This document shows positions 2,113 to 32,100 of a stretch of 59,056 nucleotides of DNA, in pieces. Position 1 is the stretch's first letter. Every line of letters begins with the position of its first letter. Made by a program: the position numbers and the translations under genes. This DNA comes from a virus, in the IMG/VR virus record IMGVR_UViG_3300024255_002709, positions 1 through 59,056 of that record, one strand, 5' to 3'. The notes under the pieces were generated by a model that was given only the letters and a program-made list of their open reading frames with translations, was not told the origin of the DNA and ran no database searches.

Positions 2113-2124
2113 TTTTTAATAATT

Positions 2125-5277: not shown

Positions 5278-5672
5278 CTAATTTTCCAATCATTAAACTC
5301 GGATGCAATACAATCTACTTTGTAATCTTTCCTACCACCATCAACTTCTTGTATTTTATTTTTTGCAGTATTTCGGATTCCATTCAATCCATGTGTTAGC
5401 ATTAATTGATTACCTACATTATCCCCACTTCTAGCATTATCTTCATTTACCCAGATATGAGTATTCATTTGAGCAAGTACAATTACTGCTCTAATAAAAT
5501 CTCCATCAATTTTTAATTGTTTTGTTGTAGTTAATATTTCTGTAATATCATGTACAATTTCTTCAATCTCTTTTTGATATTCTTTTTTGTGTTGTGGTAT
5601 TTTAACTTCTTTAAGTTGAACTATTGTTAGTCTATCTATTAGTTCCCCAAGAGTTGGTAGATATTTTCTCAT
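5271..5672 (-). CDS. Conserved hypothetical protein, DUF4254-like
   Basis: 133 aa, predicted largely helical and soluble. It opens with LGELIDRLTIVQLKE and contains QMNTHIWVNEDNARSGD in the middle, reminiscent of the N...W..ED.AR signature of DUF4254 proteins in sugar-biosynthesis loci. It lies between the DegT-like and HldE-like genes, overlapping both by a few bases, so it is probably co-translated with them. No catalytic motif can be named. The family link is tentative. Confidence 0.6.
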   Translation of the reverse strand: MRKYLPTLGELIDRLTIVQLKEVKIPQHKKEYQKEIEEIVHDITEILTTTKQLKIDGDFIRAVIVLAQMNTHIWVNEDNARSGDNVGNQLMLTHGLNGIRNTAKNKIQEVDGGRKDYKVDCIASEFNDWKISW

Positions 5673-6310: not shown

Positions 6311-6376
6311 ATATTTGTATGTTTCATTTTCACTATCATAGCTAACTGATAATCACATAGTTATACAATTTAACAT

Positions 6377-7156: not shown

Positions 7157-7157
7157 A

Positions 7158-10314: not shown

Positions 10315-10315
10315 A

Positions 10316-11059
10316 TTAATAATTTATATTGTTTATACCTTGTTTCATTAGTGTTTTTAAGTATTTGTATTGAATCTTTGGTTGATGTAATCCAATTGGG
10401 TCATTATAGTATAAGTCTTCAACAGCAAATCTTTGTGCAACCTCAATTGGTGCAATCTCCTTATTGTCTAAATATTTGATAAAATAAATATCCTCTTTAA
10501 AATAAGAATCATTCGGATGTGTTTCAATGATATCAATCATTCTATTTTTGTTTCGTATAGATAGACCACCATTTCCTACATACTTTTCTTCTTTTGGTTT
10601 TAACCATGGTGCACCTACATAAGAATAATCCAAAAATTCATCAATACCTGATTTAATTAATATTGCATCTGTTTGGAATATTAAAATATTATCAGATGTT
10701 ATCATTTTCCAAAAATCAGTTGTTCTGAATAGGGTATCGTAATCATTTACTATCATATAATCATAATCTACATGATGTAGTTCTACATTATCAATACCAT
10801 CAACTATTTTTTTACAATATTCTTCATTTAGATTACCATGAAATAATTCCAATTTCCATTTTTTATTAGAATCTGATTCATTTAGAAAATACATTGTGTT
10901 TTTTATAACAGTTTCTAAATGTGGATGTTCACGAGTTTCCATTATAACAGCAGAATAGTTATCATCATATGATTTTATTTTATAATCACTTAACTTCTCT
11001 CTAAATAATTCTATATGAGTGTTCCATATGTTTTTATGTTCATTTGTTTGTATTCCCAT
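10316..11059 (-). CDS. DUF5672-family putative glycosyltransferase
   Basis: 247 aa. The central segment reads ILIFQTDAILIKSGIDEFL, then YVGAPW and VGNGGLSIRNK, the recognised pattern of DUF5672 proteins associated with capsule and LPS loci. The TDA segment may serve as the DxD-like metal/nucleotide-sugar site. It is soluble, with no membrane segment, between the SGNH hydrolase and the Fcl-like gene and touching both. Glycosyl transfer is inferred from family context. Confidence 0.75.
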   Translation of the reverse strand: MGIQTNEHKNIWNTHIELFREKLSDYKIKSYDDNYSAVIMETREHPHLETVIKNTMYFLNESDSNKKWKLELFHGNLNEEYCKKIVDGIDNVELHHVDYDYMIVNDYDTLFRTTDFWKMITSDNILIFQTDAILIKSGIDEFLDYSYVGAPWLKPKEEKYVGNGGLSIRNKNRMIDIIETHPNDSYFKEDIYFIKYLDNKEIAPIEVAQRFAVEDLYYNDPIGLHQPKIQYKYLKTLMKQGINNINY

Positions 11060-14318: not shown

Positions 14319-15776
14319 TTAGTTTGGATTGTATTCGCCATCTTCAAAATGTGTTATATCACCCGGTCTTATTTCTACATCTGGTATTGTTTTATCAACA
14401 TCTATGTTTTGATACCAAACAGCAAGTTCTGGAAACGTTTTACAAAAATCCTTTCCTCTTCTTTTATCATATTGTTCGTAGAATGATTTGAAATCATGAA
14501 ATTGGATTTCATCCTCTCCCTCAGTAGTAACATGACCCGTTTTAACAACTTCTATATAATCAATTAATCTTTCTATCTGTGCAATTTCTCCTTCACTAAA
14601 TAATTCGTAGAAATCACTTTCTTTCTTTTGTACCTCAAACCAATTATTTAGTTTTTTGTGTAAAAACATTTTTACATCATTGGGTAAAGCTAATGGTGAC
14701 ATAAATGCTGGCCATCTGAGTATATTAAAATCCACATTAGGTCTATTAGAACCATACTTCTTTTTTAATACAATCATATCATCTAAAAATTCAGTAATAG
14801 AAAATAAACATAATGAATTAATTGTCATCATGACTGTTAGTGAACGAAATATTTTTTGATTTACTCCTTCAAGAAAGGCAACCATATGACTTCTCCATTC
14901 AGGATAAATTAAACCATCTCTAATATATTCAGCATGAGGACCAAATGATTCGTTTGATGTATATAAATCAAACTCCTTAATTGGCAACTCATACGATGCA
15001 TCGATTAATCGTTGAATTCTTTTAAAATTACCACCAAGATTTGAATTTACAGCAAATCTAAGTTTATCAGATTTATGTCCTTTCATCTTTTCTAAGAAAC
15101 TCCAAAAGTTTGGAGATGCACATGGTTCACCACCTGTAATTCTTATTTCTTCTAATCCACCTTCAATTAAATCAGGCCACCATTTTAAAAATGCTTCTAC
15201 ATAAGGATTTTGGTCATTATATTTACCATTTGCATCTGCCCAAGAACCATTGTTTTGATATGCACCAGCTGATACTGATTTAAACTTTTGATATGGTCCA
15301 AATTTATCAATATCCTTACCCCAAGTTGTAGAGTAACCAGCATTACAATATGAACATCCAAAATTACAAGTTCTATCAAAAGAAGCTTCAATTGTTTTTG
15401 GTATAATATCAGCATCCCATGGTACATCTTTAATTGCAGCGATATCTTCTTCTTTATAAATCTTAGATTTGTAAATTCTATCTGCTATATTATCTCTACC
15501 AATATCTTCAATCTTCCAACAATAAGAACACTCAGCAGGTCGTTTACCTTCTAACATCATCTTTCTTTGTTTTTTAGAAAAATCAGTATTATGTAATTCA
15601 GATGGTCTATCTTTTAATTTATCTACATCAATTGGATGAGGTAGTGGTAAGTGACATGAGTTTTTAAAACCATGCCCTAGATGCAATGATACATTGTACC
15701 ATTTTGCTGCACAAAAACTTGGTGATATACTATTGAGATTATCATCTCTCCATTTTCTTAAATTTTCTGTTGACAT
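14319..15776 (-). CDS. Twitch-type radical SAM protein 1
   Basis: 485 aa. The radical SAM cluster motif is in RTCNFGCSYCNAGYSTTW (CxxxCxxC), which binds the [4Fe-4S] cluster that cleaves S-adenosylmethionine. ITGGEP further on is the typical GGE motif. The N-terminal third holds extra Cys/His pairs (CHLPLPHP and CSYCWKIED) that could bind a further metal. The C-terminal YDKRRGKDF...FPEL segment is shared with the second copy at 16523-17941. Such proteins recur in marine phages and SPS loci; their substrate is unknown. It lies beside a LamG-like protein and the GT7-LamG genes. Confidence 0.85.
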   Translation of the reverse strand: MSTENLRKWRDDNLNSISPSFCAAKWYNVSLHLGHGFKNSCHLPLPHPIDVDKLKDRPSELHNTDFSKKQRKMMLEGKRPAECSYCWKIEDIGRDNIADRIYKSKIYKEEDIAAIKDVPWDADIIPKTIEASFDRTCNFGCSYCNAGYSTTWGKDIDKFGPYQKFKSVSAGAYQNNGSWADANGKYNDQNPYVEAFLKWWPDLIEGGLEEIRITGGEPCASPNFWSFLEKMKGHKSDKLRFAVNSNLGGNFKRIQRLIDASYELPIKEFDLYTSNESFGPHAEYIRDGLIYPEWRSHMVAFLEGVNQKIFRSLTVMMTINSLCLFSITEFLDDMIVLKKKYGSNRPNVDFNILRWPAFMSPLALPNDVKMFLHKKLNNWFEVQKKESDFYELFSEGEIAQIERLIDYIEVVKTGHVTTEGEDEIQFHDFKSFYEQYDKRRGKDFCKTFPELAVWYQNIDVDKTIPDVEIRPGDITHFEDGEYNPN

Positions 15777-15779
15777 ATA

Positions 15780-16526
15780 TTATTTTATAAATTCTGTTGG
15801 TACTTTTTCCACAAAGTATGTATTTTTTGAATTATCATATATAATTCCTTGATTATTTACTGTATTAAAGTCATAGTTAAATATTACTTTATTATATTCA
15901 TCGATTTTGTTTAAGTTATTGATATCAGTTTTATATATTTTTTTAATTGTTTCTATATCTGTAATATCTTCTACAAAGAGTAAATTATCTATATCTACTG
16001 AACCATGGTAACGATGCTCAGGTACTTCAGTACCAGGATTACCAGTTCCTAGATACAATCCTTCTGTTCTATAATCATCTATTAGATTTTTATCGAAATC
16101 AATTTCACCTACTTTTTCAAAGTTTTTATAAATTATAAACTCATCATTTTTTCTAACTATGGTAATTACAATACCATTTGAAATTTCATCATAATTTACT
16201 CCATGAAATGGTAGGTAATGAAACTCATCATCTGCAACTTTAGTTGTTGCTTCCGTCCAAAATTCTAAAGCTAATGTATCCGCTTCATGATTATATGTTA
16301 AACCAAAGTTTTTACCAGGTTTCCCAAATATACAAAATATATTATCAGATTCTAAATCTTTATCTAATTTAAATTCAATATTAATCGAGTATTCTAATTG
16401 ATGAAACAAATTAGATATTTTTTCAGATTCACTTTTATTAAACTCAGTAACGTACTGATGGTCTTTATGTTCATTTAAATCCCATTCATATTTAATCCAA
16501 TATGGTTCTTTATAATTTATTATCAT
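15780..16526 (-). CDS. Stand-alone LamG-like (concanavalin A fold) protein
   Basis: 248 aa. It reads as a beta-rich jelly-roll: alternating hydrophobic strands, LALEFWTEATTK, GLYLGTGNPGTEVPEHRYHGSVD near 175-198, and a final segment with IFNYDFNTVNNQGIIYDNS. The last motifs recall the LamG halves of the adjacent GT7 fusions (GTG..., a short xGxI strand, and the closing NYDF/HYDC plus DxSxN). It could be a free carbohydrate-binding module. It sits between the two radical SAM genes with overlaps or a 3-base gap, so it may work with them. The family call rests on pattern similarity only. Confidence 0.55.
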   Translation of the reverse strand: MIINYKEPYWIKYEWDLNEHKDHQYVTEFNKSESEKISNLFHQLEYSINIEFKLDKDLESDNIFCIFGKPGKNFGLTYNHEADTLALEFWTEATTKVADDEFHYLPFHGVNYDEISNGIVITIVRKNDEFIIYKNFEKVGEIDFDKNLIDDYRTEGLYLGTGNPGTEVPEHRYHGSVDIDNLLFVEDITDIETIKKIYKTDINNLNKIDEYNKVIFNYDFNTVNNQGIIYDNSKNTYFVEKVPTEFIK

Positions 16527-17941
16527 TTTATATCATTTATAAATTCACTCATTTCAGGATAAGTTTCTTCACAATCCAATCCTCTTCTTTGTTTATAATC
16601 TTTAATGTAATGTTTAAATTTCTTTTTACCCAATGAGAAGTCAACATCAGATTTCGCATCTTCCAAAAACATATCCTTTATTCTTGTTATTTTTTCAATT
16701 TCTTTTAATGTGAATCCACTATCAGTTGGTTCTTGTAATTGATATGAATTTAAACTTCTATATGATGAGAAAAACTTCATATATTTTTCTAATTTTTCAA
16801 AATACGAAATATCTAAATATCCTTTTAATAATCTAAAACTTAAAAAGTCAGGATATCTTAAATAAGATGTATCTATTATTAGTGGAGAATTCCAATATCG
16901 TTTTGTATTAAAATGTTTAACTTTAAAATCATATATTTTTCTTAAAAGTTTTTCATAACTAAATGGTGAAAATATATTAAAGGTAGACATTACAACAATT
17001 GTTAATTCAGGTATCTCCGTAAGTATTTTATCTATATTATCAAATAGTTGATTAAAGTTTAATCCAAATCTAATATATTCGGCTTGGTCTCCAAATGCAT
17101 CTACTGAAGTGTATAATATAAATTCTTTTACTCGTTTCTCCTTAATTATTAATTTAGCTTTTTCTATGAACTTATCTATTAGTTTATCTTCTACACAAAG
17201 ATTACTATTTATAGAAAGTTTTAAATTCTTATTAGGAGTATCTGTTTCTATAATTTCATCCAATACCTTAAATGTATCTTTAGAAAGTAAAGGTTCTCCT
17301 CCTGTTATTCTAAATGTATCCATACTTTTATAAAGTTCTGGCCACCATTTCCAAAAAGCTTCTATGTAAGGATTGTGTTCTGATTTTTTATAGGGAATCA
17401 TATCTTCATTCTCTAATGTTTTCAATGAATTAAATCCATCTCCTGTTGAAAACTCTCCATGTTTTCTCATCTCCTCTACCCATTTAGAAGAATAAGATGG
17501 TCCACAATACCCACATTTAAAATTACAAGTATTAGAAAAAGATACCTCTACATACTTTGGTAAAAAATTATCCCTCCATTGAGAATCTTTTATTTGTTCA
17601 AAAAATGGTTTTGACCAAGATTCCTCTGATTTAAAAATTCTATCTGAGTATGAATTTGAATTATCTTCTACTTTCCAACAATAACCACATTCCTTTGGTC
17701 GTTTGTTTTCCAACATTTCTTTTCTAGCTTTCTTCTTTTGAGAACTATTATGTAATGCAGTATGGTCTTTTTGTATTTCTCTTAATGAAATTTTGTGAGG
17801 TGCAGGATGATGACAAGAGTGAGTAGTTCCATCATGTAAATGCATTGTAACTTGTGTCCATTTAGCTAAACAAAACCCACATCCAACAGAATCTAACTTC
17901 TGTTTCATTTGTTCAAAGTTGTTACCTATAACTTTACTCAT
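16523..17941 (-). CDS. Twitch-type radical SAM protein 2
   Basis: 472 aa, paralogue of 14319-15776. The cluster motif is NTCNFKCGYCGPSYSSKW, followed by RITGGEPLLS. The N-terminal FCLAKWTQVTMHLHDG and SCHHPAPHK match FCAAKWYNVSLHLGHG and SCHLPLPHP of copy 1, and ECGYCWKVED matches CSYCWKIED. The C-terminal YKQRRGLDCEETYPEM is also shared. A tandem pair split by a LamG-like gene suggests a duplicated module with different targets. The substrate cannot be read from the sequence. It overlaps the GT7-LamG gene upstream by 4 bases. Confidence 0.85.
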   Translation of the reverse strand: MSKVIGNNFEQMKQKLDSVGCGFCLAKWTQVTMHLHDGTTHSCHHPAPHKISLREIQKDHTALHNSSQKKKARKEMLENKRPKECGYCWKVEDNSNSYSDRIFKSEESWSKPFFEQIKDSQWRDNFLPKYVEVSFSNTCNFKCGYCGPSYSSKWVEEMRKHGEFSTGDGFNSLKTLENEDMIPYKKSEHNPYIEAFWKWWPELYKSMDTFRITGGEPLLSKDTFKVLDEIIETDTPNKNLKLSINSNLCVEDKLIDKFIEKAKLIIKEKRVKEFILYTSVDAFGDQAEYIRFGLNFNQLFDNIDKILTEIPELTIVVMSTFNIFSPFSYEKLLRKIYDFKVKHFNTKRYWNSPLIIDTSYLRYPDFLSFRLLKGYLDISYFEKLEKYMKFFSSYRSLNSYQLQEPTDSGFTLKEIEKITRIKDMFLEDAKSDVDFSLGKKKFKHYIKDYKQRRGLDCEETYPEMSEFINDIK

Positions 17942-19386
17942 AATTTTATGTTTATAAATTTAGCATTTGGTGTTATTTCTTCAACACTTACTAATTCATA
18001 TTTTAAGGAATTCATTCCATCTGATTTGTAATCCCATGTACCTTGTTGCATTTGATGGACAAATCTTTTTTCATTTGCAGCAGTTGTTTCACCCTTAGCC
18101 CAAACTTCCTTACCATCACTATTTTTGACCAATCCCTCATCCTTATGTGGTAAACAATACATTTTACCAGGTACTCTATGTGGTACGGTTGTGTATGGTA
18201 TTTTTACAACATCTTTTTTGAATGTACAATCATGTACAATTGCATTGTTATCATTGTTAGTTTTATCCATCATTAACCCATCTTTACAATCGTAATGTAG
18301 GACTAAACCATCATCTTCAACTTCGTTATGAATATTAGATACCTCATCCTTAGTTAACGCTCTGTTCCACATTCTCACATCTGCAATATCACCTCTAAAC
18401 CATTTTGATGGTTCTGTATCTGCAACTGATGTAGTTGTTCCAAGATAATAACTTGTATTACCATATCGTTTTAACATTCCCTCAAATGATTGTGGTGAAG
18501 GTGTTCCTGTTCCCCATCTTGCATCAGATTCCTTTCCATTCATATAAAAATGAATATCATTTCCATCAACTACTAAGGTAATCCAAGACCATCTATCTTC
18601 ATAGTTTTTCATCCATTGATAGATGTGTTCTCTTTGGTTGTTCCAAAGAGTTGCGGTATATGTTCTTGAGTTATTGTAACTAAATCCATAGTCATATCCT
18701 GGTCTACGAAGAATTGGATATTCACAAAATCTCCTATCCATATCACCAACTAACCAAATTGGAACTTTTTCCTCTTGTTGATGTGCTCTTACTAATACTG
18801 AAATAGTATGTGAACGAGATGTTAAATTTCGTAATTGTCTAGTACATGGTATTTCTGCATAAGATTTATATCCATCAAATGAAATAAAATCTTGTGGAGT
18901 TTTATCGAAATCCATATATTCATAATTAGCATATCCCTCTAAAACACATCTCCAAAACAAATCATCATCTTCCATTCCCCAATCCCAATAATCATTTGAA
19001 TAACCATTAGTTCTTTCAACTTGTTCTTTAGAAAATAAAATTGCACCACCAAAATACTCTTCATATTTTAGTTCATAGTTCATTTGTGAGATTTGAGTTG
19101 CAATATGTCTAGGTTTATCTTTTGGAAAAGAATAATCAGCACCTCCATCTTCTTCAGGAATCATATCAATATCATGATATACAACATAATCACATCCTTC
19201 TTTGAACGCCCACTCAGCAGCGATGTTTTTAGTTGCTCCTCTGTTGAACAACTTATCATCTACTTGATGACCAAAATAAATTTGATAATCAATTCCCCTA
19301 TCCTTAAGGTATTTACCAATCTTTGGTATAAATTCTTTTAGATGTGATTCTCTGTTTCTATATGGTACACAAACTCCTAACTTCAT
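17938..19386 (-). CDS. GT7 (beta-1,4-galactosyltransferase-like) enzyme fused to LamG-like domain, copy 1
   Basis: 482 aa. The N-terminal ~200 residues follow the beta4-galactosyltransferase plan: VCVPYRNRESHL, FNRGATKN (47-54), HDIDMIP (71-77, the DxD metal site), YFGGAILFS and NGYSNDYWDWGMEDDDLF (127-144), where the catalytic Asp is expected. The C-terminal part (about 225-400) is LamG-like, with IHFYMNGKE, YYLGTTTS, FRGDIADVRMWNRALTKDE and LHYDCKD. The fusion would tie sugar transfer to carbohydrate or protein binding. Two more copies follow the same architecture (19793-21247, 22046-23503). No membrane anchor is seen, unlike animal homologues. Confidence 0.83.
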   Translation of the reverse strand: MKLGVCVPYRNRESHLKEFIPKIGKYLKDRGIDYQIYFGHQVDDKLFNRGATKNIAAEWAFKEGCDYVVYHDIDMIPEEDGGADYSFPKDKPRHIATQISQMNYELKYEEYFGGAILFSKEQVERTNGYSNDYWDWGMEDDDLFWRCVLEGYANYEYMDFDKTPQDFISFDGYKSYAEIPCTRQLRNLTSRSHTISVLVRAHQQEEKVPIWLVGDMDRRFCEYPILRRPGYDYGFSYNNSRTYTATLWNNQREHIYQWMKNYEDRWSWITLVVDGNDIHFYMNGKESDARWGTGTPSPQSFEGMLKRYGNTSYYLGTTTSVADTEPSKWFRGDIADVRMWNRALTKDEVSNIHNEVEDDGLVLHYDCKDGLMMDKTNNDNNAIVHDCTFKKDVVKIPYTTVPHRVPGKMYCLPHKDEGLVKNSDGKEVWAKGETTAANEKRFVHQMQQGTWDYKSDGMNSLKYELVSVEEITPNAKFINIKL

Positions 19387-19796
19387 AGTGTATCCGCTAT
19401 TAACTTTTTAAACTTAGTTGTACTCCAACCATGGTCTCTATTTAAATAATGAACTGGTACATCTAATTCGAAACCTGTGTATGTTTTACCACGATAATCA
19501 TCTCCTAAAAATCTGATATCTGGATTTAATCTGTATATTAAATCTACCAATTCTTTTTCGTAAGTATAATACGCAATTCCATTTATAAATTTTATTGAGG
19601 TTAAAATTTCTGTTCTTTCTTGTTTAGTAAGAATTGGTTTTAGTTTCTCTGGTCTTTCTATTGATGGGTCTATGTGTAAAAGAATTATAAGTTGTTTACA
19701 ATAAGTTTTACACTCTTTAAACATCTTAATATAACCTGGATGTATTACATCGAAGTTACCGGCAATCACTCCCATATTATATTTATTATCCATCAT
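19383..19796 (-). CDS. Cytidylyltransferase/adenylyltransferase (HldE C-terminal/TagD-like)
   Basis: 137 aa. GVIAGNFDVIHPGYIKMF at the start is the nucleotidyltransferase signature, with HPGY in place of HxGH, so the second His is Tyr. RFLGDDYRGKTYTGFE and RDHGWSTTKFKKLI are the following substrate and ribose/phosphate motifs, the latter corresponding to the RTxGISTT-like signature. Size fits a single domain. It may activate a sugar phosphate or polyol phosphate and complement the stand-alone HldE-like kinase at 4522-5277. It overlaps both flanking GT7-LamG genes by 4 bases. Confidence 0.83.
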   Translation of the reverse strand: MMDNKYNMGVIAGNFDVIHPGYIKMFKECKTYCKQLIILLHIDPSIERPEKLKPILTKQERTEILTSIKFINGIAYYTYEKELVDLIYRLNPDIRFLGDDYRGKTYTGFELDVPVHYLNRDHGWSTTKFKKLIADTL

Positions 19797-21247
19797 AACT
19801 CTATTGATATTTTACTTATTATTCCGTTTTCTTCTTTTTTTACTTCTTTAAATCTAAGTGTATTGATTCCATCAATTCTAAAATCATCTATGTTAGTTCT
19901 AACTTGATTATAATATTTTAATTGATTTTTTCTTGTTTCGTTATGTACCCACTTATTTCCAATAGAAGAATTGCTTTTATGTTTTAATGACTTAAAACGA
20001 GATTCTCTACGATGTGGTTTTGGTAGAAAAGTTTTAAAGGATTCACTAGACTTATATAAATATATATTGTTTAAATAAACATCATATTTTCCACCCAAAT
20101 CGATTGATGTAGTTGATGTTGATATTTCTGGTAATATTTGTGTATGTAAAAATTCACTTGATTTAAAGTTTCCAAAATTTCTAAGTTTTGGTTTAGTTGG
20201 GTTTTGTGATATCTCAAAAACTTCATCATCATTAAGAGCAATATCATATATCTCGATACTCGATATTAATCCATAAAAGAAATCTTTATTTGATGGCTTA
20301 CCATTTCCAATACCAATAAAAATTTCATCAGATGATAATTGTAATATTTCATTATTCATTTTTTCCGTACCAACAAGTTTACCATTCATGTATAATTTTA
20401 TTGTATCTGAATTTTCATATACCATGGTTAGATGAACCCATCTCTCACCAACAACATCGGTTGAAACCGAATATGGTTTTTTATCCAAATCATATGATTG
20501 ACAGAAAAATCTTCTAAATGAATTATAAAATAAACCCGTATTGTAACCAGGTATTGATAGTATAGGAAATTCATCATATTCTTTATTTTCACTTAAAGGT
20601 ATATCTTCTGGCTTTACCATAACAGAAATAGTAAACTCATCTTCAAGTAAATGTAATTTTTTAGTAGAAAAACACTTTATAAAAGAATTCGTCCCATTAA
20701 ACTTAAATGATTCTATTTCTTTAATAGTTTCATTACCGAAAGATTCAGTATCAATTTCTAAATCTGATTCGATACATCTAATTAATAAATCATCATCTTC
20801 GAATCCCCATCCCCAATAATCATTTGAGAATCCATTAATAGTTTTGAAATCTTCTTTTGTAAACATTGTTACTCCACCGAAGTAATCAAAGAATGTAGTT
20901 TCGTAATCGTGTTCTTGTAGGTGTGTTGCTAAATGAAGTGGTTTATCTGAATAAGAATAATCCACATCTTCAGGTAACATATCGACATCATGAAATACAA
21001 AATAATCGCACCCCTTATCCAAGGCATACTTATATCCTGCATTCAGAAGTTTACCTCTGTTAAAAGGTTTATCATCTGATTGTTCAATGATGAAGATTTC
21101 GTAATCAATATCCTTAATATAATCTTTCATATGAGATAAGAACCTTTTCAGTTGTTGTTCTCTATCTCTATATGGAACTATTATACCAAGTTTATGATTT
21201 ACTCTCTTCTCCTTGAGTTTCTGTGTTCTCTTGGATTCTCTCAGCAT
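19793..21247 (-). CDS. GT7 (beta-1,4-galactosyltransferase-like) enzyme fused to LamG-like domain, copy 2
   Basis: 484 aa from ATG at 21247, which overlaps the 89-aa gene by 56 bases. The conserved domain begins only at residue ~18 (KLGIIVPYRDRE). An AAGGAG lies just before that point but no ATG, GTG or TTG follows it, so the true start is uncertain. This copy has the most canonical GT7 motifs: FNRGKLLNAGY (62-72), HDVDMLP (86-92), FGGVTMFT and INGFSNDYWGWGFEDDDL (137-154), close to the animal beta4GalT signature. The LamG-like region at about 205-360 includes IKLYMNGKLVG, EIFIGIGNG and FYGLISSIEIYDIALNDDE. A galactose or related sugar donor is inferred. Confidence 0.83.
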   Translation of the reverse strand: MLRESKRTQKLKEKRVNHKLGIIVPYRDREQQLKRFLSHMKDYIKDIDYEIFIIEQSDDKPFNRGKLLNAGYKYALDKGCDYFVFHDVDMLPEDVDYSYSDKPLHLATHLQEHDYETTFFDYFGGVTMFTKEDFKTINGFSNDYWGWGFEDDDLLIRCIESDLEIDTESFGNETIKEIESFKFNGTNSFIKCFSTKKLHLLEDEFTISVMVKPEDIPLSENKEYDEFPILSIPGYNTGLFYNSFRRFFCQSYDLDKKPYSVSTDVVGERWVHLTMVYENSDTIKLYMNGKLVGTEKMNNEILQLSSDEIFIGIGNGKPSNKDFFYGLISSIEIYDIALNDDEVFEISQNPTKPKLRNFGNFKSSEFLHTQILPEISTSTTSIDLGGKYDVYLNNIYLYKSSESFKTFLPKPHRRESRFKSLKHKSNSSIGNKWVHNETRKNQLKYYNQVRTNIDDFRIDGINTLRFKEVKKEENGIISKISIEL

Positions 21248-21461
21248 CTCTTGATGGTCTATTTGATGTTCCTACTGTTTTTGATTTTGCAATTTGATAA
21301 AATTCGTTTAGATACCATTCAAATCTTTCTTGCCACATATCTGCATCCAAGTCATATATCCAATCGTTAATTTCACCAATTGATTTACCAATTGATTCAA
21401 GAGCTTTTACACCTCTTTCCTCCAAGTTATCGTTACTTGTTGTTTTCGTTGTCTTTGCCAT
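21192..21461 (-). CDS. Hypothetical acidic protein (89 aa)
   Basis: 89 aa, largely charged, with a helical centre (VKALESIGKSIGEINDWIYD) and disordered, Glu/Ser/Thr-rich ends. It overlaps genes on both sides (29 and 56 bases). The N-terminal helix is faintly like the start of the next gene (VRTLEHIDNSLQDI), so the two may be related. It lies between two GT7-LamG genes, with no recognisable family. A good ATG and continuity of the operon support it as real. Confidence 0.5.
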   Translation of the reverse strand: MAKTTKTTSNDNLEERGVKALESIGKSIGEINDWIYDLDADMWQERFEWYLNEFYQIAKSKTVGTSNRPSRDAERIQENTETQGEESKS

Positions 21462-22071
21462 AATTGTAATTTAGTTTTTTATTTTCTACTAATTCTGTTA
21501 ATAATTTTTTAAACATCCATCCTTCGTGTGATTTAAAATCAATAGAGAACGATGCTTCTTCTATATAATCTTTAAGTTTTACTGGTTTCCATTTTAATTT
21601 TTCCAATTCTGATTCTAGTTTTGGAATATCCCACTTTACTTCTTCTAAGTAGTCTTTTATCTTTTTTGGCTCCCACTTTAACTTTTCAATCTTTGCTTTG
21701 AGTTCTTCTATCTTCCACTCTAATTCTTCTATTTCGTTATTTTTATCATCTAATTCAAATTCAAGTTTTTCCATTTCTGCAGTTTTTACAACTACATTTG
21801 TATTTGCTTCATCTAACCTAAAAGTTTTTTGTTTTATTTCTTCCTCGGTTTCATCTATTCTTGGTTGATTATCCCAATACCTTTCAAAGTATTCACCAAT
21901 ATGAGAATTATTATGTTTAGAAGTTTTAAGTAAAGTTTCTAAAATCATAATAATTTTTAAAAATATAGCATTATCCTTAACACCTGGTTCAATAATATCT
22001 TGTAGACTATTATCTATGTGCTCAAGGGTTCGTACTACCTTTTCGTTATGTAACAATTCTAATAAGTTCAT
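21433..22071 (-). CDS. Coiled-coil protein with internal repeat
   Basis: 212 aa. Residues ~72-175 are a long charged helix with heptad-like spacing (EEIEELEWKIEELKAKIEKL-type sequence). Within it a ~19-residue unit occurs twice: EKLKWEPKKIKDYLEEVKW at 129-147 and EKLKWKPVKLKDYIEEASF at 157-175, separated by a similar KWDIPKLESEL spacer. It has no membrane segment or signal. It could be a scaffold holding glycosyltransferases together or a trimerising virion component; both are guesses. It overlaps the flanking genes by 26 and 29 bases. Confidence 0.6.
   Translation of the reverse strand: MNLLELLHNEKVVRTLEHIDNSLQDIIEPGVKDNAIFLKIIMILETLLKTSKHNNSHIGEYFERYWDNQPRIDETEEEIKQKTFRLDEANTNVVVKTAEMEKLEFELDDKNNEIEELEWKIEELKAKIEKLKWEPKKIKDYLEEVKWDIPKLESELEKLKWKPVKLKDYIEEASFSIDFKSHEGWMFKKLLTELVENKKLNYNYGKDNENNK
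21547..21687 (-). repeat. Internal duplicated 19-residue unit in coiled-coil gene
   Basis: Two copies of a KLKWxPxKxKDYxEE coding unit (residues 129-147 and 157-175 of the 212-aa protein) lie 84 bases apart. The DNA copies are also similar, suggesting a recent slippage-type duplication. Confidence 0.6.
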
Positions 22072-23503
22072 AATCTTCTTTATCTTGTTTATCTAATATT
22101 TTATAAGTTAATGATGATAGTCCAATAGTGGTATAATCTAATTTATCTGTTAGTACCTCATGAAAAAATATATCAGCATTTTCTTCAATATCAGGATTAT
22201 ATTTATAATATTTTTTTATTATCTCAGTATCATCCTCATGTACTAATGATTTATATTCTCCTTGCAATCTTATTGGTAAATATATTGGAGTTGTTACATC
22301 TAAAGTAATTTCCTCTACATCAAATGGTCCTTCCAATTTTAAGTGATTTAAATTTTTACCCTTATCTAATAATAATCTATTTTTATAAAAAGTTTTAAAG
22401 TCATATATACTACAAATATTAAACCCAAATTTATTTTTCAAATTATTAAATGAACTTTCTCCATCGTAAAATAAAGCAGATACTATTTCTTCATTAATTT
22501 TTGTATTTGAAGTTAATATTGATGAGATTTTAATATCACTTTGTGTATCTGAAATTTTAACTGTATGTTTTGTATAATCAAATAAATCGAAATTTTCTTT
22601 TAGTTTAAGAGTTTCTAATTTATTATTGAGGTACATAAAGATACCATTGTTATTTTTACCAAATATAACATGATTCCATTTTTCTTTTTTATAATCATGA
22701 GATACCTCATAGTGTATTTCATCTTTATCCCATATCTGACCTAGTACATGCTTTCCATGTGATAAGAATACACCAGTATCACACCCTTCAAATGAAAATA
22801 AGTTTTTTACTTCTTCTGTATTCTTTGAATCTTTGAACCAAAATGAAATAAAAAAATCTCCATTTATTAATTCATTTGTCATATGATTTATATTTCCATA
22901 AAATCTACTTTCAGCACCAAGTGATATTGTATTTATTTTATGGTTTCTTTTATCTGTACCTATTTCTACATTTTCTATCCTATATGGTAACACATCAGTA
23001 ATATCATATCTTTCATATGTTTGATTTATATCATAAAACTTTTCTAAATACGCTCCACTTCTTTCTAATCTATAAAGTAAGTCTAAATCATGAAAACCAT
23101 AACCCCAATACTCATTTGAGTATCCGTTTGCATTTTCAAAATCTTCTCTACTGATAACATTAACTCCACCAAAATATTGTGGATATGGCATCTTGTTATC
23201 ATGTGCTTCAACATTAGTTGCTAAGTGAGTTGGTGATTCGGGATAAGTATAATCACACTCATCATTCATTGGTAACATATCTATATCATGAAAAGCAAAG
23301 TAAGTGTATTCTTTACCAACTTCTTTACTAACAACATTACATAATTTACCATAATTGAAAGGTCTATTATCTGTTTGTTCTGCAATAAAAATAGTGTAAT
23401 CGATTCCCTTATCTTTAAGAAACTCTTGCATATGAGGTATGAACACATCTAAGTGGTCTTGCCTATCTCTATAAGGAACAATAATTGCTAACTTATCTAT
23501 CAT
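22046..23503 (-). CDS. GT7-like protein fused to LamG-like domain, copy 3 (degenerate active site)
   Basis: 485 aa, same architecture as the other two. AIIVPYRDRQDHL, HDIDMLP (72-78) and YFGGVNVIS are kept. FNRG is FNYG (49-52), and the WGWGxEDDD motif reads WGYGFHDLDL (133-142). The residue matching the catalytic Asp of beta4GalT remains, but the preceding Glu is His and the following Asp is Leu. It may accept a different sugar or be a binding-only copy. The LamG-like part (about 205-360) has GIFMYLNNKLETLK and a CDTGVFLSHGKH strand. It overlaps the coiled-coil gene by 26 bases and the next upstream gene by 4. Confidence 0.78.
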   Translation of the reverse strand: MIDKLAIIVPYRDRQDHLDVFIPHMQEFLKDKGIDYTIFIAEQTDNRPFNYGKLCNVVSKEVGKEYTYFAFHDIDMLPMNDECDYTYPESPTHLATNVEAHDNKMPYPQYFGGVNVISREDFENANGYSNEYWGYGFHDLDLLYRLERSGAYLEKFYDINQTYERYDITDVLPYRIENVEIGTDKRNHKINTISLGAESRFYGNINHMTNELINGDFFISFWFKDSKNTEEVKNLFSFEGCDTGVFLSHGKHVLGQIWDKDEIHYEVSHDYKKEKWNHVIFGKNNNGIFMYLNNKLETLKLKENFDLFDYTKHTVKISDTQSDIKISSILTSNTKINEEIVSALFYDGESSFNNLKNKFGFNICSIYDFKTFYKNRLLLDKGKNLNHLKLEGPFDVEEITLDVTTPIYLPIRLQGEYKSLVHEDDTEIIKKYYKYNPDIEENADIFFHEVLTDKLDYTTIGLSSLTYKILDKQDKEDYELIRIVT

Positions 23504-24342
23504 ACTTTTATTATAACATTTGAAAGTTCATTCCACTTTGTATAATCAAAGTAAGAATTATCTTCCATTTTTTCAAACATAAATTCAGGATTATTTATAT
23601 CGATTTTCCAATCATTAATCTGAATTCCTCTGTACATTTTTTTATATTCCTGCCAATAGGAATAATCTTTTTTTGTTTCTGATACTTCTTTTAATCTTTC
23701 AAGAACGGTTGAATCCCATTTAAAATGATGCACTTGTACAATCCCATTTTCTATTGGATATCTTTTAGGATGATTCCATCCTCGTTCTCTCCAAGTATCA
23801 GTATCACCGATTACTGCAAAATGTTGTCCATGTGTTACATCTACTGAACCTTTCATTACACAACATTTGTTTGGCATCGCTCCACTCATAGGATATCTAA
23901 AAAATCCTGCAAGTGGAAACGATTTCCAAATATTAGTTTCTTTTGTTACCAAAGGAAACTCTCCTCCCTCTCCTATCCTATCGAGGAATCCTCCTGTAAT
24001 AAACTCCCATCCGTTTTCATCACACTCTGAAATCATTTCTCTGATATCAGTTGGATAAACATGAAGTTCATCATCATCCGAAACCACCCACCATTCGTTT
24101 GGTTTGGTTTGTTTAACTTCGTTATATAATTGAGTTACTCTTTCCCAATTAAATTTTTCTTCGGTAACTATTTTGTAGGGTTTGATACCGAGATTTATTA
24201 CATCTTCTAAAATACCATCTAAGGTATGTTGTCTATAAACTACTACATAAATTTCATCTACAATATCTTTGTAGTGATTTATCATATGTGGTAGGATTGT
24301 TGTATTGTGGCCAACTACTGTGACCAAGTTTACTTTTGGCAT
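23500..24342 (-). CDS. Glycosyltransferase, GT2/GT92-like
   Basis: 280 aa. It starts with VNLVTVVGHNTTILPHMINHY, the N-terminal pattern of small glycosyltransferases that read 'talk of a distant event', and has WWVVSDDDELHVYP at 84-97, a clear DxD-type metal/nucleotide-sugar site. GGFLDRIGEGG and VHHFKWD further on match the acceptor/leaving-group region of GT92/Glyco_tranf_2_4-like proteins. No membrane segment. It overlaps the methyltransferase gene by 13 bases. The donor sugar is unknown. Confidence 0.8.
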   Translation of the reverse strand: MPKVNLVTVVGHNTTILPHMINHYKDIVDEIYVVVYRQHTLDGILEDVINLGIKPYKIVTEEKFNWERVTQLYNEVKQTKPNEWWVVSDDDELHVYPTDIREMISECDENGWEFITGGFLDRIGEGGEFPLVTKETNIWKSFPLAGFFRYPMSGAMPNKCCVMKGSVDVTHGQHFAVIGDTDTWRERGWNHPKRYPIENGIVQVHHFKWDSTVLERLKEVSETKKDYSYWQEYKKMYRGIQINDWKIDINNPEFMFEKMEDNSYFDYTKWNELSNVIIKV

Positions 24343-25112
24343 TTCTGAAGAATTGTTAGACCCGTAGAAGATGGTCTAGTTTTAAATATACCATTATTGA
24401 AAAAGTTAAAAATTTCCCAATCACTATCATCACTCAGTTCTTTTACTAATTTAGATGGTCCGTTTGTTATATTATCTTGATGATTTTGACTCTTAACATC
24501 TTCTGTAACTATTAAATCTTTTTCGAATGATTCATCTGTATCATGTATTGATATAATTCCATTTGGAGAAAGTATTTTAGAGTATAACTCGAAGTCTTGT
24601 TTTACATCTTCATAGGAATGACCTGCATCAATATGTAAATAATCAATTTTAATATCTTCTTTTACAAAAAAGTTATAATATGCGTTTTCTGTTGTTTCTA
24701 ATATAATTCTTGGAAAAAAGTTTTTTCTTAGAAAAGAATCCCCATTCTTCCAATCTACGTTTCCACCAATTCCATTTGCAGCATCAACAAGATATGTACT
24801 TCCTATATCACCCCAATTAAAATCTCGGTTTCCTTCAAAGATTTGTGAATCATACAAATCAACTCTTGCTTGTGTCATTATTCTAGGAATGAATCCACCC
24901 CCACTACCCAAACAAACACAAACTTTTGCTCTCATATAATGAATTATAGAGTAAATTAATAAACCATCACCTAAAGTTAAATCAGTAGCACCATGTGTCC
25001 AACGATATGGAACAGGAATATGCTCATGAAATTCCTTTCCATTTACATCTAATTTTGGTTTTTGATTATTTGTTAAATATTCTCGAAGATAATCAAGATT
25101 TAGTAATGTCAT
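24330..25112 (-). CDS. Class I SAM-dependent methyltransferase (Methyltransf_24-like)
   Basis: 260 aa. VCVCLGSGGGFIP near 64-76 is the SAM-binding glycine loop, IDYLHIDAGHSYEDVKQDF the acidic post-motif region, and GIISIHDTDES the closing strand. The IDAGHSYE...HDT pattern is typical of Methyltransf_24 proteins in sugar and LPS loci. It probably methylates a sugar residue. It is the first gene after two tandem TATATTTATA elements and so the likely head of the long glycan operon running down to about 452. Confidence 0.82.
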   Translation of the reverse strand: MTLLNLDYLREYLTNNQKPKLDVNGKEFHEHIPVPYRWTHGATDLTLGDGLLIYSIIHYMRAKVCVCLGSGGGFIPRIMTQARVDLYDSQIFEGNRDFNWGDIGSTYLVDAANGIGGNVDWKNGDSFLRKNFFPRIILETTENAYYNFFVKEDIKIDYLHIDAGHSYEDVKQDFELYSKILSPNGIISIHDTDESFEKDLIVTEDVKSQNHQDNITNGPSKLVKELSDDSDWEIFNFFNNGIFKTRPSSTGLTILQKCQK

Positions 25113-25171: not shown

Positions 25172-26164
25172 TTAGTTAAATAGATTTACAACATCAGCTG
25201 TCCATCTTGATTTATCATCATATTTTTTTAAATATTCTTTTAATTTATAAAATTCATTTGTATGAACTGATTCACTATCGGATAAAATTAATTCATATAT
25301 TTTTTTAAACTCATTTTTTGATGATGCTCTATATCGATAATCAACATCTCCCCAATCAGAATGTATGATAGGTAATTTACCATAATCAACTGATTGGAAT
25401 ATAGAATAACCAAATGGTTCTTTAGTATGACATGAATGTGAAATACTCCATTTAAGGTTCATAAAAGAGTTTAGTATATCGATACTCCATTTAAAATATT
25501 TAGTTCGTTTAAAATCATAATATCCACTTTCATTTATATTTTTCCAATCATAATATCCACTTAAAACATATGATGGAAGTGAATCTAAATAATGTACATT
25601 TTTCCTTGATTCTATTCTTGATGCAAATCCTATTTTATTATTTATTTTACCAAGTTCTATATTATGCTTAAATTCGTAAAAGTTTGTTATAGTTTCTGTT
25701 TCGAAATCATTAAATATTTCAGATGGATTATTTCCAATCCAAATTCTTTTTTTACAATAAGTAAGTAATTCTATTACATCATCCTCTACTACATTTGTAC
25801 TAAACTGTCTAAGAGAATCTCCATATTGTAACATATCAGGTAGATATGCTTGTACAAAAATAGTTCCCCACTTATCTTTATATTTCCATAGATGGTCTCG
25901 TTTGTGATAATTTGCATGCAAAAAATGTATTTCACTACACATTTTTAAAATAAAATCTGTCTTTTTTGCATCTTCTAAGTGAAAGTGAAGTTTTCCTAGT
26001 TTTTCAAGATTGTAAGTATCTCTCCATCCAATTGGTTTTTTAGAATCTACCAAAATATAATATTCAGAAAGATGAGGTAAAACTAATTCTATAAAATTAT
26101 TAGTCCACATATCAGCACCACCTTGAATGATGTTACCACAACCTGTTGTTACAAAAACCTTCAT
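25172..26164 (-). CDS. Glycosyltransferase, GT4-like (GT-B fold)
   Basis: 330 aa. The N-terminus VFVTTGCGNIIQGGADMW resembles the acceptor-domain start of GT4 enzymes. IGFASRIESRKNVHYL near 195-210 matches the donor-domain opening, and EPFGYSIFQSVDYGKLPII the E(x7)E-like nucleotide-sugar region, with the second Glu replaced. Shorter than the usual ~370 aa. It follows the giant fibre gene by 10 bases and is probably co-transcribed with it, which hints that it glycosylates the fibre. Confidence 0.75.
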   Translation of the reverse strand: MKVFVTTGCGNIIQGGADMWTNNFIELVLPHLSEYYILVDSKKPIGWRDTYNLEKLGKLHFHLEDAKKTDFILKMCSEIHFLHANYHKRDHLWKYKDKWGTIFVQAYLPDMLQYGDSLRQFSTNVVEDDVIELLTYCKKRIWIGNNPSEIFNDFETETITNFYEFKHNIELGKINNKIGFASRIESRKNVHYLDSLPSYVLSGYYDWKNINESGYYDFKRTKYFKWSIDILNSFMNLKWSISHSCHTKEPFGYSIFQSVDYGKLPIIHSDWGDVDYRYRASSKNEFKKIYELILSDSESVHTNEFYKLKEYLKKYDDKSRWTADVVNLFN

Positions 26165-26174
26165 TAATTATTTT

Positions 26175-29100
26175 TTATCCACAATATAGATATCCGTACA
26201 CGCCTTCCATTTTACCATTAGAATCCCACGAAGATGATTCCATAGATTTTGCTACTGTATAAGAACATTGTGATTGTCTTTCTTCGTAAATTGGAGTAGA
26301 ATCTCCATTAAATCCTGTTACTACCCATTCAGATGGTTGTTTCATTAAATAACCAGGAGTATCTGAAGAACAAAGTAAATCACCAGGTACAACATCACCA
26401 CCTTGATTACACATTTTAAATCCTGTTAAACTAAAGTAAGAACCGGATACATTCCATTCAATACTATCCCCAAGAGATGCTACTCTCCATATTTCTTTTG
26501 AACCAGTTTCATTATTTGGTAAATAATTACCAAATGAATCTAAATATGATGCGGATACCATTTCTTCTGATGCTGTATAAGGAGTGTATCCATCCTCTAC
26601 GGAACCAGTTATTAGGTTTGTTATTTTTAATTCATATTTTTCCCAAAGAATACCAACCACCGATGTATCTTTTGCTGATGATACTTTTATAAGTTCATTA
26701 TTTGAATCTACTTTTACTAAATCACCTCTTGAAATATTTTCCGATATTCTCTTTTTATATGCGTGTCCTAATGTTACAACTTGGTCTAATTTTGCAGACA
26801 TATTATGTGAAAGTATTCCATCTGAAATATAATTATGCACTACATCTAATTCATAATTCCAAACCTCAACTTCTTCATCAAAAGTTTCTATACTTTTTAT
26901 TTTATCAATAATTAATCTTCCATCATCATAAACATACAACTCACCACCAACTCCGAGTTTATCAACAGAAATTTCACAATTAGGATAATCAGGATGATAT
27001 AGTAAATGTGAATTAGAACATTTTAACTTTTTACCTAATTCTGTTTCTATCTTACTCCATCCTTGTACTTTATTAGTAATAATTTCATCAATAGATGACC
27101 ATCCCCATTCTTTGGTTTCAAAGTTAAATATTTTGATTACATCATCTTCTTTTGTATCTTCTACATTTATCTCACCTCTTTTAGAAATTATTTTAGTACC
27201 AGGTAATACACAAGAAACGGAATCTCTAACATCAATCCTGGTAAAGTTACTACTAATAGTAGTAAATCGACTCCCGATTCCAGTTGATGAAGTACCGATA
27301 CCAATATCGTCCCTTATTCTAAGAGTACCCTCTGAAGAAAATGAAAATGCACTTCCAAAAGTAGAGCGGCTAGTTCCACTACCAATTTTTGCAGCTGTCC
27401 TTATAACCAGTCCATCATCATCAACATCAAATATATCACCAAATGGTCGAATATTACTACCACCCTTTAATTTAGATTTTGTTGTATCTTGTACAAAGTT
27501 ACCAGATGTATCAATATAGAAACCAGCTGCAGATATAAAACCACTACTTCCAATTGTTATACTACCTGCTGATGTAAAGTCTCCACTACTTCCTTTATCA
27601 CCACTATATAACGAATCTGAATCAATCTTCCATGCACCCACAGTACCAGCAGTTGCTGTAACTCTATTTACATCTAATGTAGAAGAACTATGGTCCCAAG
27701 TTAATGCACCATTAGTACCTCCAAGATAAAAATCTCCATTATTAGCCATGTAACTTTTAAACTCACTACCATCGTGGTATCCCATGTAGGCAGATGTTAA
27801 ATTTAACCCTGCTGCTGCAGTATTAGTTGCTAATGTAAACCCATTACCACCAAATGAATAACTTGATGGGTTTGGGTCTCCCGCTGACCAAGCAGCTGAA
27901 TTGTTACTAATGGTTTGGTTGGCAGCATCGGCAGCATCTTTTGCAGCTGATGCGGAAAGAGCAGCATTTCCTGATGCCGTAGTTGCAAAACTTTCAGCAT
28001 TTTGTTGAGCGGCAGAAGCGGAAGCGGCGGCTCCTGCTCCAAAATCTTCTAAAGTAGTTGAACCTGCTGCAATTGTCATAGTACCAGTCATTGATAAGTC
28101 ACCATTTGAATCAAATGATAATTTATCTCCAAGTGAAAATTGCCCATCACTATCAATATAAAGTTGAGTGTTTGAGTTTCCAAAATCTCCTGCTCCTGTT
28201 CCTGTTCCTGTTACTACTTTGAATGCAGTACTTGTTACAGATACAGGTCCAATTGTTGCTGAGTTCATTACAGCATCTCCACTCATGTTTACACTAAATG
28301 GAGCATCACTAAATGTAGCATCACCTAATTGAATACCACTAGTACCTGCTTTGAATATATCATCACCAGTACCAATAGTTACTGAACCACCAAATGTACC
28401 TGTTGCTGCTGATATATCACCACTAAATGAAGCATTACCATCGGATTCGATTTTAAATTGTTGAGCATGAATCGAACCAGAATCTAAATTAATTGCCATA
28501 CCTGCTGCAGCATAACCAGTTGTATCTGAAATTCCATTAGTTGTACCAGAAGCTGAATCATTCCAATTTGTAGATATAATCCTACCAGTTGAAATATTAT
28601 CTCCATGGATTGCCGTTGTACCAGTAGTTCCAAATGATAATGCATTTCCACTACCATTTGAAACCGAATCATCTGCGGTAAACGTTACTAAACCAGTAAA
28701 TCCAATTGCTTGTTGAGCATCACCAAAGGTTGGTGTACCTGTTCCACCTCCAGCAGTTGTTTCAACAACAGAATAGGTTGAGTACCAATATTTATTATCA
28801 TTACCACCTGAATATGTTGGTGCACCCAATCCCCAATCAGCGGTTAAACTAGTAAATGTACCATTAGAAAAAGTATATGAAGTTGCACTTGGTGTAGCTG
28901 GTTGAGTTGAACCAGTTTCTTGATAATGAATCATTCCAGTTGCAGTTCTCTTACCATCAGCACCAGTTATTGATTCACCTTGAACTGCAACTCCTACATT
29001 GACTGTAATTGTTTTACCTGTAAGTGTAGTTCCTTCTGAATTGGTGTAACTTAGTGTTACAACGGAAGTTGTACCATCACCATTACTTGGTTTAGTTGGT

Positions 29101-32100
29101 GTAATCGTTCCATTATTATTATTTGTTCCATTTGTTACACCAGTAATTCTAAATTGTTCTTTGGCTATTGGGCTACCAGGAAAATAATAGTCATAATCAG
29201 AACCACCTTGATTTACAATAATACTTACTGCAGATGGAGTACCAACTGTACTAAAATTCGCATTTGAATCCACCGTTTGTGCTTGTGGATTTGCAGATAT
29301 TAGTACAGTTGGTGTTGCACTTAGAGATTTAGATAAAGTAAATTTAATAGTTGTTGTATCAGCAGTTCCTTCGTTATCTTTAAATGCAATACTAGCAGTA
29401 CCAGTTGCAGAATCTCCTGTAAATCCTGTAACATCTATTGTAGATGTACTTGGAGTTGTATCTGCAACAGTTACACCAGTTACATTAGTTATTTTATATT
29501 GACCTGCAGTAAGTGTTCCTTGATTATATGTTAAAGCAGTATTACCATCAAACCCATCTATCCTTACATCGGTAATACTACTATTTAAACTACCAACCGA
29601 ATCTGCATCAATTGTTTGAGCTGCTGGTGTTACTGAGAAATTTGTATTTGGTTGAGCTACCCTAACTCGTGATACGGTTGCTTCAATTGTTTTAGTACCA
29701 CTAGTTCCCTCACCATCTGTAAAGTTTACTGGTATTGATGCAGTTCCTGTATCTGATGTCATATCAGATGCATCTGAAGTAAATGTGAAAAGTTTAGTTG
29801 AATCATCACCACTTCCAGTAAGTCCTCCAGTAAAGGAAATTGTACCAAATGATGTAAATCTATTTGTACCACCTTCTCTTGCATCAATCTTTAATGAACT
29901 TGGTACATCCGAACCACTACCAACTGAATTTGCGTTAATTGTTTGTGCTTGAGGTGTTACAAAAACTTCCACATTTGGAACGGCAGCAGTTGCTTTTGAA
30001 AAACTAAATTTAACTTCTTGTGTTCCAAGTGTTCCTTCAAAATCTTTAAAAGAAATAGAAGCTATACCTATTGCAGAATTTCCACTAAATGAAGTTACAT
30101 CTATTGTAGATGTACTTGGAGTTGTATCTGCAACAGTTACACCAGTTACATCAGTTATTTTAAATTCACCTGCAGCAAGAGTTCCTTGATTATATGTTAA
30201 CTCTGTATTACCATCTGCACCCTTTATAGTTATATCAGTAATATTACTATTTAAACTACCCAATGAATCTGCATCTATTGTTTGTGCTTGTGGGTCTGCT
30301 TTAAAGTTTGAACTTGGTTGTGCCTTTCTTACTCGTGTAACAACCACCTGTACATCTTTTTGACCAAGTGTTCCTTCTCCATCTGTAAATTTTACAGGAA
30401 TTAGAATAGTACCTGTATCATCAGTCATATCAGATGCAGTTGATGTAATAGATAATGTGTTTGAAGATATAGAACCCGTTAACCCATTACTAAATGTTGG
30501 AGTGTGTATTGAAGTAAATCTATCCGTACCTCCTTCAGTTGCTTTAACTAAAATATTTTGTGGAGTTGCTGAACCACTACCTAGTGAGTTAGCTTCTATT
30601 GTTTGTGCCAATGGTCTACCAGAAACTTCTACGTTTGGTTGACCAACTCTTGTTCTTGAAATAGTAGATACAATAGTTTTAGTACCTTGAGTACCTTCAC
30701 TATCAGTAAAGATTACAGGTATTGTTATTGTTTCAGTATCCGATGTCATATCAGATGCAGAATCTGTAATCACAATAGTATTTGTAGATATAGAACCCGT
30801 TAATCCCCCACTATATGTTGGATTACCAATTGAATCAAATCGTGAAGTACCACCCTCGGTTGCACTTAATGTTAAGTTAGTTGGTGTTGCTGAACCAGAA
30901 CCTCTTGAGTTTCCAGCAATTGTTTGTGCAATAGGAGAAACAGCAAGTTCTATATTTGGTACAGAATTTTTAGCTTTAGTATAGGATACTATTTTTTGAA
31001 ATGATTGAGATGTTGCATTATCACCTGCAAGATATTCAATATTTAATGTTAAAGAACCACTATCCTTAGTGTTTGAAAACGCAGATATTCCATATGAATT
31101 TGAAGTTGGTGATGTACTGATAGGAGTTACATTAGTACCACTAACACTTGTTATATCAAATGTATTTTTTGCTCTACCATCTCCTACATCATCATGTGTT
31201 ATTTGTGAAGAACCAATATTCATTTGAACAGTTCCTACCGATGATGCCAAACCACCAATTACAACACCAGTTGATTTTGCTGGAAATGTTGTGGATTCGT
31301 TTGATAGTACAAGTGAAACTGCATCAAAGTTAATTACTTTAGATAATGTGATTTCATCCGATTGTTTATTACCAAAAACATCAGAACCTGTAAATGAATA
31401 TGTTACCTCATCAAAGTTATTTGATGCAAATGATGCAGAGAACTGATTAGATGTTATACTATATGAATCAATACCATTTACAGTTTCTACAAAATTAAGT
31501 GGTGGTCTATTACTTCCACTATTTACTTCAATTGGTGTTATCAATGAAGCTAAGTTTTTTCTTTGTGCTCTTACAGTTATACTTTGTCCACTTGGTTTTG
31601 AAGAAAGAGTTGTTGGTTCATATGTAAATTGATTTGCATTAGAAGTTACAATAAGTTGAGGTGCATTATCACCATCTTCTAATCTATATACAGTTTCGAA
31701 TTCTTGTTCACTTTCCAAAGAAGCAGTATAAACAACAGAACCTACAAATGGTTCATATAATCCATCTGTTCTTGAACCAGTAAAGTTGTTAATAGTAATA
31801 ATACCACCTGCAGGATTTACACTTGTTAGTAAACCTGGATATTGTGTATAATCACTAGGATTTAAATAGTTACCATCCGTATCAAATGCAGATGATTCAA
31901 ATAAAGTAGAACCTGTTAAGTTGTTCTGTGTTAGTTTAAATTGTATTTGTTGTCCTTTTGGATTTTGTACTGAACCACTTGAGAATCTAAATGCGTTTCT
32001 ATCAGATTCAAATGTTAGTAACTTAGCACTCGTTGGAAAGTCATTACCACCATCAAATACACCAACTGCTAATACATCAACAGGTATGTAATTATTATTT

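Follow-up and report, generated by a model that had tools for sequence, protein, structure and literature searches.

The locus studied here raises the question of what galactosyltransferase-like enzymes joined to LamG-like domains do in a phage, i.e., which sugar they transfer, onto which acceptor, and what the LamG domain contributes. Three such genes were found in the window, the whole stretch of 59,056 nucleotides of viral DNA that was analysed. By its baseplate wedge, primase, and SbcC/SbcD-like genes, the window is that of a T4-like phage. In the ORF at 33893-37051, a metallophosphoesterase and an SbcC-like AAA domain occur together, resembling a fusion of both subunits of the recombination nuclease.

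The three genes lie on the minus strand at 17938..19386 (GT1, copy 1, 482 aa), 19793..21247 (GT2 copy, copy 2, 484 aa), and 22046..23503 (GT3, copy 3, 485 aa). All were searched against Pfam and PDB, GT1 by phmmer and by alignment to B4GalT1 without its LamG. The GT2 copy and GT3 were also studied with AlphaFold and Foldseek, with residue counts added for GT3. Glyco_transf_7N (E 1e-16 to 1e-23) and Glyco_transf_7C (E 5e-16 to 5e-21) were above the Pfam cut-off in every copy, and the best solved structures in the PDB sequence search were B4GalT1 and B4GalT7 (E 2e-30 to 5e-34). The AlphaFold models reached pLDDT 81.6 and pTM 0.75 for the GT2 copy, and pLDDT 92 and pTM 0.82 for GT3. Their top Foldseek matches were B4GalT1 and B4GalT7, followed by jelly rolls, i.e., 4dqa, the LamG of PAPP-A, and other LamG-like domains. 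Matches to botulinum binding domains in the same lists reflect the shared jelly-roll fold only. The first-pass annotation had staked its reading on a GT-A fold together with a jelly roll, and it was not refuted on this point, as structure prediction with Foldseek supported both in copies 2 and 3.

The ORFs, the Pfam domains, and the B4GalT1/B4GalT7 matches agree with the three GT7 proteins annotated at 17938-23503, which belong to the GT7 family beyond reasonable doubt. A transmembrane stretch was absent from all three copies (highest 19-residue Kyte-Doolittle average 0.36-0.57), as the annotation had noted. As part of the whole functional reading, the proteins are on balance regarded as inverting GT-A enzymes with the GT7 (beta-1,4-galactosyltransferase) fold, soluble and located in the cytosol. 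The view of GT7 as an animal trait was not upheld, as the 7C domain was above the cut-off in five of 14 control genomes, all five prokaryotic. An animal origin of the genes is not supported by these prokaryotes or by the LamG-free relatives in bacteria.

The LamG_3 domain (Laminin_G_3, PF13385) was recognized above the cut-off in copy 1 (3.7e-14) and copy 2 (6.8e-18), and below it in copy 3 (0.05). A chance match in copy 3 was ruled out by its model and by its relatives, since LamG_3 was matched in 32/34 members of its alignment with them. LamG is present in all copies, as had been annotated, but it is inserted in the catalytic domain and not placed at the C-terminus. A C-terminal fusion was rejected because the GT7 C-core is located after LamG, and the final ~75 residues of each copy are the usual GT7 C-terminus.

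The GT1 protein is laid out as an N-core (aa 1-153), LamG with a linker (~aa 165-397), and a C-core (~aa 397-482) with the lid histidine and SDGMNSLKYEL. Without LamG, GT1 aligned to human B4GalT1 as a single continuous domain, query 2-222 to chain 52-256 (221 query residues), and its score rose from 109 to 118 bits. The junction left by the removal, ...VLEGY followed by VPHRVPGKMYCLPHKDEG, faces VFRGMSISRPNAVVGRCRMIRHSRDK of B4GalT1. Cutting LamG out of the GT2 copy likewise raised its score, from 121 to 127 bits. In copies 1 and 3, phmmer weakly matched the B4GalT1 SDGLNSLTYQVLDV strand to residues 451-475. When profiles of each domain were searched in all fetched ORFs, the order in phage copies was N-core, LamG, and C-core. 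In the phage copies the median spacing from N-core to C-core was 245 aa, whereas the ten bacterial GT7s without LamG had 3-8 aa at this place. The GT N-core and LamG were matched to separate targets by Foldseek, and the C-core was located by sequence profile rather than by superposition.

Counted back from His343, the insertion point corresponds to about residues 326-331 of human B4GalT1, between the Trp loop and the lid. The Trp loop of B4GalT1 is 309-318 and the lid is 338-365, including Met340 and His343; lid closure brings these two residues into the metal site and makes the acceptor-contacting helix (PMC6198961). For the architecture alone, it is nearly certain that LamG is nested in the catalytic domain of GT7, after the Trp loop (WGWGxEDDD) and ahead of the lid bearing the Mn2+ histidine. 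With the catalytic domain interrupted by LamG directly ahead of the lid, the insert could as well influence the choice of acceptor or control the lid as simply tether the enzyme.

A search for the GT7 and LamG architecture, proposed in the first-pass annotation, found LamG in 167 of 170 non-redundant viral GT7 copies and none of this architecture among 50,697 deposited phage records. The three viral exceptions are a fragment (L080), a copy with an insert of similar length and no LamG match (L086), and a LamG-free GT7 of 228 aa on a viral contig (L013:5134-5817), possibly an uninserted relative. In tblastn at 1e-5, the GT2 copy gave no match in deposited phages. With E up to 10, GT1 gave mostly weak matches of the LamG region in structural proteins of deposited phages, and its GT part was without significant match. 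No clear combination of GT7 and LamG was found among the top viral structure models listed, where F2Y2P4 (rank 3) covered 297 columns with high rmsd, and none was found among the solved-structure matches. No description of GT7 or LamG with phage glycosylation was found in the literature searched, most subscription papers being outside its scope. The GT7 fold is known, but the nested-LamG form and its conserved phage setting are new.

Related stretches numbered 408 in the viral collection, and two or three GT7-LamG copies per locus were found in uncultured aquatic phages. The copy types were named by gene position, i.e., first (GT3), middle (GT2 copy), and last (GT1). In a tree of N-core plus C-core with LamG omitted, the first, middle, and last copies formed separate old clades following gene position; some forks were weakly supported and some branches long, and the deep order is unsure. 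Loci with two copies mostly have the middle and last types. These old position-based clades rule out a recent tandem duplication. The annotated number of three copies was confirmed, but other genes interrupt the row: copy 3 is separated from copy 2 by two ORFs (21192-21461 and 21433-22071), and copy 2 from copy 1 by a nucleotidyltransferase gene (19383-19796).

The annotated motifs were recovered in part. The DxD metal motif is present in all three copies (HDID, HDVD, and HDID in copies 1, 2, and 3), and by pattern the majority of the 170 viral copies have it as well. The Trp loop is WDWGMEDDD in GT1 and WGWGFEDDD in the GT2 copy, both of the WGWGxEDDD type, but it is WGYGFHDLD in GT3, which has FNYG in place of FNRG. 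Alignments and profile placed the lid histidine and the C-terminal DGLNSLxY strand of the copies beyond the LamG insert. The key residues of the GT2 copy are D87/D89 of DxD, Y122, D151, and H423.

In the last type, the equivalents of W310, E313, D315, and D316 were kept in 63/63 copies and the lid histidine in 67/67. The middle type, a few of whose counts take in first-type copies where a locus has two copies, keeps W310 in 52/55, E313 in 53/55, D315 in 49/55, D316 in 55/55, and the lid histidine in 65/67. The first type, with mostly FNYG, keeps W310 in 11/24, E313 in 12/24, D315 in 0/24, and the lid histidine in 19/27 by pattern. The three copies thus differ as enzymes, since several residues of the catalytic loops are missing from the type of copy 3. 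The altered Trp loop and the absence of the D315 equivalent in 24/24 of its type indicate that GT3 is a diverged GT7 homologue of uncertain activity. Enzymes of the first type may have weak activity, a new specialisation, or a regulatory role. Tyr285 is tied to donor choice in B4GalT1 (PMC6198961), and pattern matching gave a tyrosine opposite it in 158 of the 170 viral copies. This tyrosine is the one observation that supports UDP-Gal as a probable donor and a putative beta-1,4 linkage.

The GT7 genes belong to a cassette whose order is conserved over 81 viral loci: (330-aa protein) - methyltransferase - GT2-like - GT7 (- GT7) - GT7 - twitch radical SAM - LamG. All its genes in the window are on the minus strand, and the short overlaps between most of them suggest a single operon with coupled translation. 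The 330-aa protein (25172..26164; relatives in 45/81 loci) had no family match and is perhaps a glycosyltransferase. It is followed by the methyltransferase (24330..25112; Methyltransf_24, Pfam 5e-11; 66/81 loci) and the GT2-family-like glycosyltransferase (23500..24342; Pfam Glyco_tranf_2_4 7e-5, below cut-off; 70/81 loci). The twitch-domain radical SAM gene (16523..17941; NF033640 E 3.6e-96; 77/81 loci) overlaps GT1 by 4 bp, and a second one was found at 14319..15776 (E 2.5e-82). With 322.7 and 277.1 bits, both exceed the curated cut-off of 170 for N_Twi_rSAM (NF033640). Four or five twitch radical-SAM genes stand in a row by the GT7 copies in L019, L020, L021, and L023, which suggests strong diversification. 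The nucleotidyltransferase gene at 19383..19796 is cytidylyltransferase-like or heptose-1-phosphate adenylyltransferase-like (Pfam 1.9e-9, PHROG 7878 1.6e-31; TIGR02199 3.5e-16, below cut-off) and has relatives in only 12/81 loci.

Ten bp upstream of the cassette ends a gene for a Ser/Thr-rich, repetitive, fibre-like protein of 2491 aa (26175..33650, minus strand), which is a candidate acceptor. Its relatives adjoin the cassette in 14 loci. A Hint/intein-like domain near its C-terminus (aa ~2146-2283, CVLPGTKI...SHN; bacterial intein-like match 2.5e-4) may cut or splice this fibre. The nearest long ORF upstream of the cassette has at least 17% Ser+Thr in 42/54 loci, compared with a mean of 10.7% and a maximum of 14.3% in cassette ORFs. 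In about a fifth of the loci with a long upstream ORF, that ORF was not Ser/Thr-rich, and in several loci two to four further ORFs separate the fibre gene from the cassette. The chaperone of endosialidase is typical of tail fibres. It was found in 17 of 40 upstream ORFs scanned and LamG_3 in three of 40, and others have collagen repeats or Hint. A further ORF of ~1600-2200 aa with weak LamG_3 (1e-5 to 1e-6, below cut-off) was observed away from the cassette in many of the related viral genomes, e.g., in the records to which L015, L022, L025, and L026 belong, and may correspond to ORF 43336-48954 of the window.

The functional reading as a whole, i.e., lectin-assisted stepwise transfer of a hexose, probably galactose, onto a virion fibre, is slightly favoured. 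The guided, perhaps stepwise glycosylation of a repetitive virion protein that the annotation had suggested is consistent with the cassette, the old paralogue clades, the Ser/Thr-rich fibres, and the nucleotide-sugar genes described below, but its fusion picture is incorrect in detail and the acceptor is a candidate only. The GT2-copy and GT1 types would probably work in sequence during infection, extending a glycan with Gal or a similar hexose taken from a UDP-sugar. The GT3 type would probably assist them, either weakly active or changed in specificity. Placed between two mobile elements of the catalytic cycle, the Trp loop and the lid, the LamG insert would most likely bind the acceptor, be it the part of the glycan already built or its carrier protein. 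It would thereby favour productive lid closure and be, in effect, an in-built acceptor-specifier, the part that alpha-lactalbumin plays for B4GalT1. As acceptor, the long tail-fibre or virion fibre rich in Ser/Thr that is usually encoded close upstream is the most likely, and the products of the radical SAM, methyltransferase, and standalone LamG genes may build, modify, or bind the same glycan.

Downstream of the cassette, Pfam recognized nucleotide-sugar biosynthesis genes (597..11059, minus strand), i.e., dTDP-4-dehydrorhamnose 3,5-epimerase, GDP-mannose dehydratase-like, epimerases, a DegT aminotransferase fragment, 2OG oxygenase, PfkB kinase, and split TPP-enzyme subunits. A sulfotransferase-family gene at 38707-39279 (Pfam 1.8e-19) could serve in glycan sulfation. 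The nucleotide-sugar and heptose-type genes resemble a supply for envelope polysaccharide, and a sugar cluster of such size would fit an alteration of the host surface polysaccharide in infection, e.g., to block superinfection or receptor re-binding, in which LamG would bind the polysaccharide acceptor. Serotype-changing phage glycosyltransferases are known, as far as they are cited in PMC12619734. However, the GT7 proteins have no membrane anchor, the scan of cassette genes yielded no flippase or polymerase, fibre genes usually lie upstream of the cassette, and the remaining window genes are those of a T4-like lytic phage. Host envelope modification is the main rival to fibre glycosylation and is considered unlikely.

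The LamG-only gene that had been annotated at 15780-16526 was confirmed. This standalone LamG-like protein (15780..16526, minus strand, 248 aa) had no Pfam match; in small searches it matched the insert HMM (1.3e-14) and the standalone-LamG HMM (1.4e-22), from which it is judged homologous to the GT7 inserts. In both inserts and standalone forms, e.g., L064:12031-12687, a GLxLHYDF...DLSGNxNxG segment comes after the LamG core. Elsewhere a segment of the GLxLHYDF...DLSGN type usually comes before it. This order is perhaps a circular permutation of LamG, and a profile search of solved structures for it gave nothing useful. The mean identity of the inserts is 26% versus 52% for the N-core, with a Spearman correlation of 0.68 between them, as expected if LamG was mostly inherited with the enzyme while diverging faster.

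LamG-like folds can have proteins as well as sugars as ligands, and LamG might guide the enzyme by protein contact, docking either on fibre domains of LamG or Ig-like type or on the standalone LamG as adaptor. The conservation of the homologous standalone gene in the cassette, the LamG_3 domains of the upstream structural ORFs, and the faster divergence of the inserts, as expected for a changing partner, agree with such docking, but the fast divergence suits glycan recognition equally, and protein contact is judged rather improbable. T4 glucosylates its own DNA. Glycosylation of phage DNA bases with LamG as a structural spacer would accord with this and with the genome hypermodification by phage glycosyltransferases documented in reference 46, as far as cited in PMC12619734, but it is very improbable given that the known homologues B4GalT1 and B4GalT7 take glycan acceptors, the neighbours are glycan genes, and no base-hydroxymethylating enzyme was found among the scanned ORFs, which are part of the genome.

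Beyond fibre glycosylation in this window, it is tentatively proposed that large T4-like aquatic phages share an undescribed, widespread system, in which nested-lectin GT7s would read the tail-fibre glycan and extend it stepwise, giving a mucin-like or host-mimicking coat with radical-SAM chemistry. If this is true, the best studied inverting glycosyltransferase family has a natural, built-in acceptor specifier, which would be useful for enzyme engineering. Fibre glycosylation would then be common in uncultured aquatic phages and bear on adsorption and host range.

The nearest known enzymes are B4GalT1 and B4GalT7 (CAZy GT7; PDB 6FWT, 4IRP). The phage copies share with them the GT-A N-core, DxD, Trp loop, and lid histidine in order, the tyrosine at the donor-selecting position, and the DGLNSLxY C-terminus. 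They differ in having no anchor or stem, in the LamG between Trp loop and lid, and in the diverged catalytic loops of copy 3. The LamG-free bacterial GT7s (e.g., L101 of Simkania; L099 and L102 of Planctomycetota) have an N-core up to about 50% identical to that of the phage copies, but the same C-core follows it directly, without insertion. The polypeptide GalNAc-transferases (GT27) are GT-A enzymes with an in-cis ricin-type lectin that can guide follow-up glycosylation. They belong to another GT family, and their lectin is C-terminal and ricin-type, whereas the phage LamG is inserted in the catalytic domain. Virion proteins of mycobacteriophages are glycosylated (Freeman 2023, as cited in PMC12619734), but these are other phages, and the targets named in that citation are capsid and tail tube subunits. 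The binding partner alpha-lactalbumin changes the acceptor choice of B4GalT1, forming lactose synthase (PMC6198961); it is a separate protein, whereas the phage LamG is a covalent insert near the lid with a putative role of this kind.
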